Assembly (NCBI GenBank): GCA_003567775.1
Contig: PWYR01000043.1
Span: 1-35,702, forward strand
DNA length: 35,702 bases
Reading direction: 5' to 3'
Source of the DNA: Ignavibacteriales bacterium
Lineage (GTDB): Bacteria; Bacteroidota; Ignavibacteria; T3Sed10-11
The notes under the pieces were generated by a model, which was not told the origin of the DNA, did not search any database, and saw only the letters and a program-made list of their open reading frames with translations. How positions within the stretch are numbered: the stretch's first letter is position 1; every line of letters starts with the position of its first letter. The position numbers and the translations under genes were made by a program. This document shows positions 7,251 through 11,944 of the stretch, in pieces.

Positions 7251-9698
7251 CTACATCCCACGACCGAACTGGAAGTGGAATTTCCATCCATCCGGCTTCC
7301 CCGGACGCTCGAAAACATCGTCGAAGCCATATGCATAATCAAAACCGATCATACCGAGCGGTTGTACAAGCATTCGAACACCAACACCCGCAGATCGGCG
7401 CAGATCACCGAAATCGGTGCTCTTGAAATCCGGCCAAACATTTCCCGCCTCGACAAACGCAAGCAAGAAAATCGGGATCGGATTTAATGTCGGTGCAAAC
7501 CGGAACTCTAATGTATGTATCGCCATAGCTTTACCGCCGATTTCCTGCATGTTGCGTAACGGTCCGACTTTGCGGTCTTCGTATCCACGCAGCGGCGTCA
7601 CGTTAAACTGACCGATTCCCGTACCTCCCATAAAGAATAGCTCAAGCGGTGGAATGACAGTATCATCGTGAAACGGAAACATGACCGACGTTTTTGTTTT
7701 AAGAGACAATGCAAACTTATTTGAATTAAACATCGGCGTATACCAGTTTGCTTCAAACGTATGGCGATGGAATTCCACCGTTCCCGGGAGCAACGGACCG
7801 CCGGCTAGTTCATTTGTTATTGCAACATTCGATCCTCGCGTCGGGAAAATCGGGTTATCGACGCTGTTACGACGAATAATTTGAGTAATGCTAATTTGCG
7901 TTGTTACACCGGGAGGGAAAATATCGCGCCCGTCAATCACATCGTTCCGCTGACCGCGTACGATCCAATCACCCCGGAAATAGTCGTCGGGCCACATAAA
8001 CCTGCGTCCGATCCTCACCGAGCCGCCGGTTTGTCTTAGATCATAGAAGAACAGGTATCTCGTATCGAACATATTCACACCGAAAAGAGTCGGTGTATCG
8101 TAAAGCCAGGGTTCCGTAAACGAAATACTGAAGGTACGATAGCTGCCGGCTTCTCCGAACTGCCAGTCAAATGTAAGCTGCTGACCGCCGCCGCCGCGCA
8201 ACGGACGACGCAGATCGAAGTTATTAAAACTCAGACCGAGACCGCCGGTAAATCCCCATCCCTGTGCATACCCCACCGATGCATTAAACGTATCGCTCGA
8301 TTTTTCTTCAAGATTAAAAACAATGTTGACCGTCTCTTCATCGTCGAGATACTGGTTCGGTTCCATGGTTTCCGGATTAAAATAATTCAATTGTTGCAAC
8401 TCGCGGATGCTGCGAATTAAATTCTGTCTCGAATAATAATCACCGGGTCGTGTGTATAACGACCGGCGAATAACGTTTTCGCGTGTTTTTGTGTTACCGC
8501 TGATCAACACTTGACCGATACGAAACTGATTATTTTCACGTATTCGAATTCGCAAATCGATGCTATCCGGTGGTACACGAACTTCTTCCGGATCCGCTTG
8601 AAATGCCAGGTAACCGTTATCCATATAAAGCGATGCTACATCGTGCTGGTTCGGATTGAAGAACATGTTCTTTTCGAACCGTTCCATATTGTAGACATCT
8701 CCTTTTGCAAACCCCAGACGTTCGCTCAATACCCGGTCTTCATACACGGTGTTTCCGATCCACTCGATATTTCTCACGTGATATTGCGGTCCTTCGTAGA
8801 CACTCACATGCACATACATTTCGGCGTTCTCATAGTAAATCGAGTCGCTTACAATGTCGGCGTCGCGAAAACCTTCCTTGCGATAATAATAGATGACTTT
8901 ATCCAGTCCCTCTTTATATTCATCCCGATCGAATCTTCCCCGTGACCAGAATTTCCACCAGCGCTTGGTGCTGACACCGAGCTGCCGGCGCAGCTTACTA
9001 TCGCTTACGTGTTCGTTGCCTTCAAATACAACGTCACGCACCCGGATATCTTCACCCTCCGAAATATTATATTGTAATATGACGCGGTTCGGTTGCGCAT
9101 CGGGTGCGGGAATTATCTCATGATCAATTTCTACAAGTATCTTGCCTTTTTCATGATACTCTTTTTCCAATTTCGTCTTGAATCTATTTAAATGTTGAGG
9201 TGTCAGAACCTGTCCGCGCGATATATCGACAACGCGACGAAGATCGCGTTCACGTAATTTTTTGTTGCCCTGGAATTCAACGCGCTCTAACCGCGGATGC
9301 TCTGTGACTTTTATAACGAGGTAAACACCGTCAGCCGTTCGTTGTTCTATTTCAATGCGGATATCGCTGAAGATGCGAAGTGCGTGAAGTTGTTTGATTG
9401 CCTGAGCGGTCCGGTCGCCCGGTATGGTAATTTCATCACCGACACGTAATCCCGAATTAGCGATGATTGCCGAAGCATCTGCCGTTACTGCTCCTTCGAC
9501 TGAAATTCCGAGTATACGATAACGTTCGGGTTGTTGAATACTCCGGGCAAATCCTTCTAGCGAGAATCCGAAAATGTAAACCACTATTATCAGGAGAAGA
9601 ATAATCGGAAAGATGTACCGGTGAGATTCCACGTAATTTTGTTTACTCTCCCGTAATTGTTTGGAATATTTTTGCTGCAAGACTCTTCTCGCCTCCAT
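7251..9698 (-). CDS. bamA: Outer-membrane protein assembly factor BamA
   Basis: An 815-residue Omp85 protein inserting beta-barrel proteins into the outer membrane. After a hydrophobic segment (about residues 30-50, YIFPIILLLIIVVYIFGF) come five POTRA domains (to about 425; note VEFQGNKKLRERDLRRVV, VFEGNEHVSDSKLRRQL and VLISGNTKTRENVIRRSL). A 16-strand barrel follows and ends with an aromatic C-terminus. LRGYEDRKVGP is the conserved loop-6 motif. Three starts compete: GTG 9722, ATG 9698 with a perfect AAGGAGG 4 bases upstream, and GTG 9632 just after the uppS stop, which would give a conventional short signal peptide. ATG 9698 is chosen. It overlaps uppS by 56 bp and gives an unusually long polar stretch before the membrane segment. 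Confidence 0.95.
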   Translation of the reverse strand: MEARRVLQQKYSKQLRESKQNYVESHRYIFPIILLLIIVVYIFGFSLEGFARSIQQPERYRILGISVEGAVTADASAIIANSGLRVGDEITIPGDRTAQAIKQLHALRIFSDIRIEIEQRTADGVYLVIKVTEHPRLERVEFQGNKKLRERDLRRVVDISRGQVLTPQHLNRFKTKLEKEYHEKGKILVEIDHEIIPAPDAQPNRVILQYNISEGEDIRVRDVVFEGNEHVSDSKLRRQLGVSTKRWWKFWSRGRFDRDEYKEGLDKVIYYYRKEGFRDADIVSDSIYYENAEMYVHVSVYEGPQYHVRNIEWIGNTVYEDRVLSERLGFAKGDVYNMERFEKNMFFNPNQHDVASLYMDNGYLAFQADPEEVRVPPDSIDLRIRIRENNQFRIGQVLISGNTKTRENVIRRSLYTRPGDYYSRQNLIRSIRELQQLNYFNPETMEPNQYLDDEETVNIVFNLEEKSSDTFNASVGYAQGWGFTGGLGLSFNNFDLRRPLRGGGGQQLTFDWQFGEAGSYRTFSISFTEPWLYDTPTLFGVNMFDTRYLFFYDLRQTGGSVRIGRRFMWPDDYFRGDWIVRGQRNDVIDGRDIFPPGVTTQISITQIIRRNSVDNPIFPTRGSNVAITNELAGGPLLPGTVEFHRHTFEANWYTPMFNSNKFALSLKTKTSVMFPFHDDTVIPPLELFFMGGTGIGQFNVTPLRGYEDRKVGPLRNMQEIGGKAMAIHTLEFRFAPTLNPIPIFLLAFVEAGNVWPDFKSTDFGDLRRSAGVGVRMLVQPLGMIGFDYAYGFDDVFERPGKPDGWKFHFQFGRGM

Positions 9699-10488
9699 TG
9701 TTCCTCCTTCGTACTTGTTCACTCACAAGACCAAAACGCCGTTCGCGGTTTTGATAGTCTCTGATTGCTTCATATAAATGCTGTCGTCGGAATTCGGGCC
9801 AATAAAGCGGGGATATAAATAATTCCGAATATGCAAGCTGCCAGAGCATGAAATTGCTCACCCGATATTCTCCGCCCGTTCGTATAAGCAAATCGGGTTC
9901 CGGGATCCCCGAAGTAGTAAGATGATCCGAAATGAGCGATTCGTTAATATCATCGAGTTCAATTTCTCCCTGCCGTACTTTCAGGGCAATTTCTCTGACG
10001 GCATTTACTAATTCCCACCTACCGCTGTAACTAAGCGCTAAATTAAGCGTCAGCCCGGTATTACCTTTTGTAATCGAAATTGCATCCGCGAGTTTTTTTT
10101 GAACTTCACCCGGGAGTTTATCAATAGCTCCGATCGCCGTCAGCCGCACATTATTTCTATGCAGTTTATCGGTTTCTTCACGGAGTGAATTCAGAAGCAA
10201 ACGCATAAGCGTAGAAACTTCATCTTGCGGGCGGTTCCAGTTTTCCGTTGAAAAAGCATACAGCGTTAAATAACCAACACCCAATTGACCGCATACCTCT
10301 ACTATGTCCCGTACCGAACCTACACCTTCCCGATGACCGGCAACACGCGGTAAAAAACGTTTCGTAGCCCACCGACCGTTCCCATCCATAATTATCGCAA
10401 TATGTCCGGGGATATTCCCTGAAGCTCGCAATTCCTCTTGAATTTTCTTATCTTCGGCAGTCGGTTTATTCAGCGCCTCAAGTTCCAA
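9643..10488 (-). CDS. uppS: Isoprenyl (undecaprenyl) diphosphate synthase
   Basis: This cis-prenyltransferase condenses isopentenyl diphosphate units to make undecaprenyl diphosphate, the lipid carrier for peptidoglycan and LPS sugars. IAIIMDGNGRWATKR carries the catalytic Asp. HREG, LTLYAFSTENWNRP, LNLALSYSGRWE and RTGGEYRVSNFMLWQLAYSE are the conserved regions in order. The 281-residue length includes a slightly extended N-terminus. The start is a TTG at 10488 with AAGGGG 10 bases upstream. No ATG lies before the active-site block, so the TTG is the best choice. It is the first gene of the leftward envelope run, with a good promoter-like sequence upstream. Confidence 0.95.
   Translation of the reverse strand: MELEALNKPTAEDKKIQEELRASGNIPGHIAIIMDGNGRWATKRFLPRVAGHREGVGSVRDIVEVCGQLGVGYLTLYAFSTENWNRPQDEVSTLMRLLLNSLREETDKLHRNNVRLTAIGAIDKLPGEVQKKLADAISITKGNTGLTLNLALSYSGRWELVNAVREIALKVRQGEIELDDINESLISDHLTTSGIPEPDLLIRTGGEYRVSNFMLWQLAYSELFISPLYWPEFRRQHLYEAIRDYQNRERRFGLVSEQVRRRNNGGEKSLAAKIFQTITGE
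9703..9709 (-). promoter_or_regulatory. Strong ribosome binding site deciding the bamA start
   Basis: Reading leftward, AAGGAGG is followed by four bases and then the ATG at 9698. It is one of the strongest Shine-Dalgarno matches in the window and lies inside the uppS coding region. It favours ATG 9698 over GTG 9722, whose own upstream sequence has no comparable site. Confidence 0.6.
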
Positions 10489-10697: not shown

Positions 10698-10736
10698 TTT
10701 TGATTAAAGGTAACTACTCAGCATGAGAGAAATATA

Positions 10737-10925
10737 TGCCACCAAAACACGAAATTTCACCAAAGGGTTATTGAAAACAACCGAGATAACGATTTTGATC
10801 CTATTCCGGCAGAGCTTGATGAAATCGGCAAAAAAATTGTACATGCTGCATACCTTGTTCATAAAGCACTTGGAGCCGGACTACTTGAAAAGGTATATGA
10901 AGCGTGTTTTCGTGTTTTGGTGGCA
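10737..10925. mobile_element. 189-bp element with perfect 18-bp terminal inverted repeats (MITE-like)
   Basis: The left arm TGCCACCAAAACACGAAA (10737-10754) is the exact reverse complement of the right arm (10908-10925), 18 of 18 positions. Neither arm extends inward or outward by Watson-Crick pairing, so the ends are sharp. ATA occurs directly outside both arms (10734-10736 and 10926-10928), a possible 3-bp target duplication. The 153-bp interior encodes the beginning of a GxxExxY-family protein that stops abruptly at the right arm. This looks like an internally deleted, non-autonomous derivative of a larger element, but no transposase is present to confirm mobility. It sits between the presumed ybaB promoter and the ybaB start. 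Confidence 0.6.
10758..10910 (+). pseudogene. Truncated GxxExxY-family protein remnant
   Basis: One frame reads through DFDPIPAELDEIGKKIVHAA and YLVHKALGAGLLEKVYEACF. This matches the N-terminal region of GxxExxY proteins, a small PD-(D/E)XK-nuclease-like family of unknown function, including the name-giving motif GLLEKVY. The family normally continues for about 70-80 more residues with the putative nuclease core. Here it is cut at the right inverted repeat, after which the frame ends at 10952. No ATG, GTG or TTG opens this frame upstream, so it cannot be a normal gene. It is best read as a gene fragment kept inside the inverted-repeat element. Confidence 0.65.
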
Positions 10926-10987
10926 ATAATATCGTCGCTGAGCAGTAATTAATAAAGAATATTTTTTTAATAATATAAAGGTGCAAG

Positions 10988-11326
10988 ATGAAAGGAAAGC
11001 CCGGTATGCAAAATTTGATGAAACAAGTCCAGAAAATGCAGGAAAAGATGGGCGAGGTTCAAGCACAGCTCGAGAATAAGACAGTTACTGCAGAATCCGG
11101 CGGCGGAATGGTAAAAGTGACGGCAAACGGTCGTCAGCAATTAGTTAAAATTGAGATCGAAAAAGAAGTTGTCGATCCGGAAGATATCGAGATGCTCGAA
11201 GATTTGGTCGTTGCCGCCGTCAACAAAGCACTCGAAGAATCGAACAATATGGCGCAGGAAGAAATGTCAAAAGTAACAAGCGGCATGATGCCCAATATCC
11301 CGGGCATGAAATTCCCCGGTATGTAA
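10988..11326 (+). CDS. ybaB: YbaB/EbfC family nucleoid-associated protein
   Basis: A 112-residue protein with the family pattern: MQNLMKQVQKMQEKMGEVQA as the first helix, then TAESGGGMVKVTANGRQQLVK and IEIEKEVVDPEDIEMLEDLV, a helix of alternating Ala, Asn and Lys, and a short Met/Pro/Gly-rich tail. YbaB dimers bind DNA without strict sequence need and travel with recR in many bacteria, as here (6 bp gap). The ATG at 10988 follows a GTGCAAG stretch rather than a strong Shine-Dalgarno sequence. Confidence 0.95.
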   Translation: MKGKPGMQNLMKQVQKMQEKMGEVQAQLENKTVTAESGGGMVKVTANGRQQLVKIEIEKEVVDPEDIEMLEDLVVAAVNKALEESNNMAQEEMSKVTSGMMPNIPGMKFPGM

Positions 11327-11332
11327 AATTAT

Positions 11333-11944
11333 ATGATACACACTTCTCAAACTATTGAGATTTTATCCGATCATTTATCGAAGCTGCCGGGTATCGGGAG
11401 AAAGACCGCACAACGTTTAGCGCTTTTTATACTCAAACTGCCGGATGAAGAGGTCAGATCGCTTGCAAATACACTCATTGAATTGAAGGAGAGAGTCAGG
11501 TATTGCACGGAGTGTTCAAACATTACCGAAGATGATCCCTGTATTATTTGCAGTAATCCCAAACGCGACCGTTCTATTATTTGTGTGGTCGAAGAGCCGA
11601 AAGATGTAATTGCCATTGAACGCACGAACGAGTTTCGCGGGCTGTACCACGTGCTCGGCGGCTCGTTATCACCGCTTGACGGAATCGGTCCGGATGATCT
11701 GAAAATAAAAGAGCTGCTCAAACGGATTGACGCAAGGAAAAACGAAATGCCGGTTAGCGAGGTGATACTTGCACTCGATCCGAACGTTGAAGGCGAAGCG
11801 ACAATTATATATCTAAGCAAGCTGCTTCGGCAGTTCGAAGCAAAATTAACCCGCATCGCGCGAGGGCTTCCCATCGGCAGCGACCTTGATTTTGCCGATC
11901 AGGCAACGCTCGCGCGTGCTCTCGAAGCACGGGTATTACTTTAA
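11333..11944 (+). CDS. recR: Recombination protein RecR
   Basis: RecR works with RecO and RecF to load RecA at single-strand gaps. The 203-residue protein has the N-terminal helix-hairpin-helix (LSKLPGIGRKTAQRLA), a four-Cys zinc finger (C58, C61, C70, C73), a Toprim domain (ICVVEEPKDVIAIERT, followed by LYHVLGG and SLSPLDGIGPDDL) and the closing Walker-B-like region (TRIARGLPIGSDLDFADQAT). The spacing to ybaB is 6 bp, so the two are co-transcribed. Confidence 0.97.
   Translation: MIHTSQTIEILSDHLSKLPGIGRKTAQRLALFILKLPDEEVRSLANTLIELKERVRYCTECSNITEDDPCIICSNPKRDRSIICVVEEPKDVIAIERTNEFRGLYHVLGGSLSPLDGIGPDDLKIKELLKRIDARKNEMPVSEVILALDPNVEGEATIIYLSKLLRQFEAKLTRIARGLPIGSDLDFADQATLARALEARVLL

Follow-up and report, generated by a model that had tools for sequence, protein, structure and literature searches.

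A described parallel to the locus reported here is found in 23S rRNA intervening sequences. In Coxiella burnetii, RNase III removes an intervening sequence in which tandem GACAGAT heptamers precede an ORF (PMC4990558). The ORF is small, encodes a four-helix-bundle protein (S23p) and lies within an inverted-repeat stem with the heptamers at its 5' side. The distribution of these sequences is patchy and selfish-looking. They resemble the elements that we describe in this distribution, in the small ORF within an inverted-repeat stem and in the tandem repeats at its 5' side. Heptamers of another kind, TAACTGA, have been reported from Beggiatoaceae and Cyanobacteria as intergenic direct repeats that adjoin ordinary genes (PMC4679880).

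The gene family at issue here, GxxExxY (TIGR04256; PF13366, PDDEXK_3), is present in a large share of environmental bacteria and has no known role. A sequence-only reading of a 35,702-nucleotide stretch of Ignavibacteriales DNA (hereafter the window) had proposed that such genes may be cargo or drivers of elements bounded by terminal inverted repeats (TIRs), and knew of no established link of this kind. We likewise found no description of arms or element boundaries for GxxExxY in the open literature, where the name appears in two papers, in one of them incidentally (subscription journals, preprints and database comment fields were outside the search). Genomes, contigs and loci are given below by our own G, C and L numbers, the window genome being G000.

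The window contains an inserted segment that lies outside 23S rRNA, between two protein-coding genes, and its ORF belongs to GxxExxY rather than to the S23p/four-helix-bundle family. The features of the locus are as follows.

9643 to 10488, minus strand: gene flanking the insertion (from the ORF list), which we take to be uppS-like on the word of the sequence-only reading and general knowledge.
10704 to 10707, no strand: left copy of a possible target duplication, TTAA (sequence and empty site in G002, TTTTTTGTTTAATAAAGAATA; weak, AT-rich).
10708 to 10952, no strand: whole inserted segment (alignment with G001, G002, G004 and G005, all of which lack it), containing one copy of the possible TTAA duplication.
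10711 to 10722, plus strand: outer left arm TAACTACTCAGC, complementary at 10 of 12 positions to 10937 to 10948, in a region paired in the predicted RNA fold.
10737 to 10754, plus strand: inner left arm, perfect over 18 bp (from the sequence); the array CACCAAAA-CACGAAATTT-CACCAAAGG continues to 10766.
10794 to 10910, plus strand: truncated GxxExxY coding remnant (TIGR04256 and PF13366 matches; 29/37 identity to L150).
10908 to 10925, plus strand: inner right arm, perfect over 18 bp (from the sequence); its array runs inward to 10904 (GTGTTTT).
10937 to 10948, plus strand: outer right arm GCTGAGCAGTAA (sequence and predicted RNA fold).
10949 to 10952, no strand: right copy of the possible target duplication, TTAA (same evidence as for the left copy; weak, AT-rich).
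10988 to 11326, plus strand: downstream ybaB-like gene (from the ORF list; orthologs in relatives).

The inner arms, which had been read as perfect 18-bp inverted repeats around 153 bp, are indeed 100% complementary over 18 nt and separated by 153 nt. They are not expected by chance, as 20 mononucleotide shuffles of the window gave no perfect inverted repeat of at least 14 nt within 300 nt. The last left-arm repeat unit, CACCAAAGG, has no counterpart on the right. The arm-bounded 189-bp unit thus stands as proposed, but the true insert is wider (about 245 bp, roughly 10708 to 10952, with boundaries set against the nearest sister species, G002) and includes the second, outer pair of arms.

The insertion sits in the upstream leader of the ybaB-like gene, which is followed by a recR-like gene at 11333. 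Four species of the same genus have the corresponding uppS-ybaB gap (G001, G002, G004 and G005), and in 4/4 the insert is missing while the flanks align. Judged from these alignments, this is an insertion between uppS and ybaB in the window lineage only, and not a fixed leader. The 3-bp target duplications that the sequence-only reading had suggested looking for were not found. TTAA stands at both insert edges and at one matching site in G002. Because the surrounding DNA is AT-rich, this 4-bp repeat is only a candidate target duplication, possible and not proven. Elsewhere in the window, a 14-nt perfect inverted repeat pair (16056 and 16354) within a large succinate dehydrogenase-like ORF is probably due to chance.

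The forward frame at 10794 to 10910 translates as FDPIPAELDEIGKKIVHAAYLVHKALGAGLLEKVYEACF. An N-terminal PIPxEL leader precedes roughly the first 32 positions of the family; the family motif is present as GLLEKVY, and the catalytic part is missing. Profile matches uphold the assignment to the GxxExxY N-terminus. The frame aligns to positions 2-31 of TIGR04256 (E 4e-7, 30.3 bits; a fragment would not be expected to reach the cut-off of 35 bits, and this one does not) and scores 29.9 bits against PF13366 (over the cut-off of 22). Homology had been thought to stop exactly where the right arm begins; instead, it runs 3 nt into the arm, whose first three bases are the last homologous codon (TTT, 10908-10910). 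GTGTTTT at 10904-10910 is therefore simultaneously coding sequence and a further arm unit. This double use of the bases at the break makes a microhomology deletion with its junction at GTGTTTT likely, as an inference.

The best protein match of the remnant is L150 in the sister species G005 (29/37 identical), a longer gene that is cut by the contig end and preceded by an identically spelled palindrome, ACCACGAAAACACTAAAACAC...GTGCTTTAGTGGT. L132, L058 and L142, among the next-best matches, have CACCAAAACACAAAGG-type spelling or near variants. Since its closest relative is longer and lies beside a palindrome of the same spelling, the window copy is best read, from these comparisons, as the internal-deletion stump of a larger unit, as had been supposed. 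A second GxxExxY remnant in the window genome (G000:C54:12703-12942; L029, L158) contains stops, is orthologous to L151 and has no evident arms.

GxxExxY genes are present in 44/61 relatives, with 0-12 matches per genome. The full-length genes found in elements are clear family members (135-156 bits against TIGR04256), of which the window copy is a fragment. We scored flanking arms by local alignment of one flank against the reverse complement of the other, with a score of at least 14 as the criterion. Inverted arms were identified at 21/30 full-length GxxExxY loci from relatives in the class, and at 0/29 ybaB control loci from the same relatives (top score 10.5). A second set of 80 GxxExxY loci from named genomes gave 77 usable loci, 48 of which score at least 14; control positions shifted by 700-900 bp in these loci gave 0/279. 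The second set spans about six phyla (Bacteroidota, Planctomycetota, Verrucomicrobiota, Acidobacteriota, Chloroflexota and Spirochaetota). It consists mostly of metagenome bins, so individual names may be misassigned, though the phylum spread is clear. About one third of GxxExxY loci have no arms at this threshold.

Some loci depart from the single-gene, single-arm layout. L123, L127, L149 and L037 carry a complete arm-spacer-arm palindrome on each side of the gene, in direct orientation, instead of single arms. L145 (G003:C411), L148 (G004:C363) and L151 (G005:C272) are single ORFs of approximately 270-280 amino acids, and those of L145 and L148 each give two separate tandem GxxExxY matches. 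The two flanks of L056 share a GC-rich repeat (GCTGTTGGGCGTAGTGCCGTTCCCGCGG) that differs from the arm units seen elsewhere and recurs downstream. Carriage by phages or plasmids was considered and dropped: the phage collection contained no GxxExxY, and among plasmids the family is rare.

The arms are not fixed transposon ends; each element has its own array of iterated units. These units are a degenerate 7-mer, CRCNRRG (CACAGAG, CGCAAAG, CACGAAG, CACTAAG), or, in divergent members, GATT/GAATT forms, and the arrays usually have TTAACC(A/G)C at the outer end. CRCNRRG is about 10 times as frequent as at control positions and faces inward from either side: per 130 nt there are 2.1-2.7 inward units, 0.8 in the opposite orientation and 0.2 at control positions. 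Unit spacing peaks at 9-11 bp. Within an element the spelling is mostly uniform; it changes from one element to the next, even in one genome. This pattern is what tandem slippage and palindrome correction would leave, and the arms could accordingly be a mutational by-product of slippage and template switching at quasi-palindromes beside a harmless gene whose protein has no role. We consider such an origin very improbable, as the arms around this gene keep to one type of 7-mer, one (inward) orientation and one spacing in different phyla, and none of the shifted controls or ybaB loci reaches the arm threshold.

Elements with more similar proteins tend to have more similar arm spelling (Mantel r 0.33, p 0.0005, 79 loci), and the correlation is unchanged when flank composition is controlled for. 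It fits co-inheritance and recognition alike and cannot separate them. At one intergenic spot shared by two congeners, GxxExxY genes are flanked by arms spelled CAGAG (L128, G019) and CTGATT (L139, G037); either a replacement has taken place, or all units were respelled in concert.

Searches with the arms and flanks returned further copies and further empty sites. The arm motif recurs in the window genome at C65, C159 (twice) and C36, and three of these are short gene-less palindromes. The sister species G002 has several more palindromes with the same ends, GCCACCAAAACACC...GGTGTTTTGGTGGC, and partly shared outer flanks. The gene-less palindromes of the window genus are thus a small MITE-like family. 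When solitary palindromes were searched for as high-copy MITEs in five genomes, most of them adjoined their own gene; only the window's genus had a small gene-less family at dispersed positions, and the elements are not high-copy within a genome. Around C36:29290-29310 (L028), a CCCGATAAATATCGGGA palindrome lies within the arm of a gene-less element, where another repeat is apparently nested.

These copies bear on the reading of the window insert as an ordinary non-autonomous MITE that was moved by an unrelated transposase and captured a gene fragment by chance. The genus-specific family of gene-less palindromes with the same GCCACCAAAACACC ends, the small size and the intergenic position would all fit. 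Arms of this kind surround full-length GxxExxY genes in many phyla, however, with element-specific spelling, no fixed TIR and no clear duplication, and no transposase was seen in the GxxExxY elements. This evidence already disfavours the reading, and we give it very little credence.

Orthologous sites that lack gene and arms as a block were identified for several full-length elements. The clearest cases are L130, whose site is reduced to a 2-nt gap in G061, holds the gene in G028 and G069 and has remnants in both G062 and G019, and L133, whose site is empty in G019. At one site (L354), just 2 nt stand in place of the missing block. The site of L129 has the gene in one species and a gene-less palindrome or traces in at least four others. 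Stop-containing copies and stumps are common. Because empty, gene-bearing and gene-less states share orthologous sites, gain, loss and internal deletion all seem, on this comparative evidence, to occur. At empty sites the flanks are 70-94% identical at best, which is not enough to define junctions cleanly. A search for target duplications at several of these sites gave no convincing case; a possible TAATT duplication was seen at one site other than that of the window, with diverged and AT-rich flanks.

The residues that are invariant in two alignments of full-length relatives include G18, G20, E23, Y26, D63, E73 and K75. D63, E73 and K75 are of catalytic type and match a PD-(D/E)xK centre, and E23 and Y26 belong to the family motif. 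The structure model is of moderate confidence (pLDDT 73, pTM 0.62), and its alpha-beta order is compatible with PD-(D/E)XK-type nucleases. A fold search gave weak matches, the best to 2okf (fdxN-element excision controlling factor, E 0.02, TM 0.40), with Cas4-like and RecU-like folds lower. Profile matches were weakly Cas4-like, and no solved structure was matched by sequence. The modelled fold thus lends only weak support to a nuclease fold.

Copies are retained at the same site in several species, and orthologous copies are long-lived; those of full length retain the nuclease residues. The pN/pS ratio between orthologs is 0.02-0.19, indicating strong purifying selection, with synonymous sites often near saturation. 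In several of these orthologs, the two arms can still base-pair. Without selection they would have diverged by then, unless palindrome-correcting mutation restores pairing; the unit may therefore be kept by selection, by continual copying or by both. Judged from these substitution patterns, long orthologous retention with purifying selection speaks against a simple parasite of the insertion-sequence kind.

The same retention across several species, with pN/pS down to 0.02, is what a host-beneficial or addictive module would show, that is, a stably inherited nuclease cassette of toxin-antitoxin-like or defence type whose arms are regulatory sites and whose spread is incidental. We regard such a module as improbable. 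Presence is patchy (0-12 matches per genome), stop-containing copies and stumps are frequent, and no named defence family was matched beyond the weak similarity to Cas4.

We consider it probable, on balance, that the window insert is the internally deleted stump of an 'inverted-iteron' element, in which a GxxExxY gene lies between inward-pointing degenerate repeat arrays that form a palindrome. Against this stand the lack of a definable target duplication, the low copy number, the long persistence, the third of loci without arms and the weak structure matches. The sequence-only interpretation is nevertheless supported: other copies of the arms exist, full-length genes have flanking arms far more often than controls, and the segment is not conserved at this locus across relatives, so none of the outcomes that would have refuted it was met. 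Of its wider proposal for GxxExxY genes, flanking arms hold up, as iterated arrays rather than fixed transposon ends, and a driver role is not shown. The anatomy of the elements, their cross-phylum generality and their presence or absence at orthologous sites are shown here; transposition, target duplication and the action of the arms as DNA or RNA are not.

The mechanism that we favour for the inverted-iteron element is one in which the GxxExxY nuclease would recognise its own arm repeats once these have folded back into DNA hairpins or cruciforms, as might happen in replication. It would cut at the folded arms, and host repair would then copy or keep the unit. Arm and protein would consequently evolve together, and loss of the gene would leave gene-less palindromes or stumps. 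This mechanism as a whole remains a tentative inference, somewhat short of being probable. The correlation between arm and protein is also expected from plain joint inheritance.

A second gene family also weighs against this mechanism. In TIGR02436, the four-helix-bundle family to which the protein of 23S rRNA intervening sequences belongs, 17/29 loci (L091-L120) have inverted arms. These arms are sharply periodic at 7, and their identity at lags of 7 and 14 is 61-63%, against approximately 30% when shuffled. This family has no nuclease and the same architecture, so the arms need not be nuclease targets. Since unrelated proteins share the architecture, the need for nuclease activity is weakened and a role in RNA stays possible.

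The arms could, for instance, form a long RNA stem around the ORF that is co-transcribed with the neighbouring genes and either processed (for example by RNase III) or bound by the protein as an autoregulatory site, so that the element is tolerated inside operons. The window insert is predicted to fold as a nested stem that includes the outer arms, and elements often lie directly behind an upstream stop codon and ahead of the next start (judged by eye and not counted). The period-7 inverted arms of the four-helix-bundle family point the same way. No expression or processing data are available, and PD-(D/E)XK-type nuclease domains usually act on DNA, which we count against this explanation. RNase III excision of the heptamer-bearing Coxiella intervening sequence (PMC4990558) is a precedent in its favor. 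We hold an RNA role of the arms to be rather unlikely.

The inverted iterated arms give GxxExxY a defined unit and likely binding sites, and they link this family to the equally puzzling four-helix-bundle/23S intervening-sequence genes. This common orphan gene, found in more than two thirds of the relatives and at up to 12 matches per genome, seems to belong to an element for which we found no earlier description, and some short intergenic palindromes and gene stumps would be explained as remnants of such units.

Several known systems share part of this anatomy. REP/BIME-RAYT systems (tnpA-REP) likewise have one small gene with palindromes on either side, and further palindromes without a gene at other places; L123, L149 and L127 have such a palindrome-gene-palindrome layout. 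GxxExxY elements differ in having no Y1/HUH transposase, iterated element-specific arms and few copies per genome; the Pfam matches of the fragment and the NCBIfam matches of full-length genes are to the PD-(D/E)XK/GxxExxY family, so the requirement for a Y1/HUH gene is not met. With TIR transposons and MITEs they share inverted terminal arms and empty orthologous sites (for the window insert and several full-length elements). MITEs are also short, inverted-repeat-bounded, gene-less intergenic derivatives, and the window copy is a derivative of this kind; unlike MITEs, GxxExxY elements lack both a parent transposase whose fixed ends match theirs and a clear target duplication. The TAACTGA heptamers (PMC4679880) are tandem 7-mers near start codons, are patchy over phyla and resemble the arm units of the four-helix-bundle genes, but do not form inverted pairs around one gene family.

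The 23S rRNA intervening sequences differ from GxxExxY elements in their unrelated protein and in their location (23S rRNA helix 45 versus intergenic DNA), and repeat spacing is 7 in four-helix-bundle arms versus 9-11 in GxxExxY arms. One unifying possibility, which we regard as speculative and rather unlikely as it stands, is that GxxExxY elements are cross-phylum minimal mobile elements, each a nuclease gene in a palindrome of co-evolving recognition sites, moved by the action of the GxxExxY nuclease on the folded arms. The four-helix-bundle elements would then be a parallel period-7 lineage, and the 23S intervening sequences a special case. An ORF inside an inverted-repeat stem is already known from 23S intervening sequences, and its GxxExxY counterpart is apparently undescribed in the open literature.
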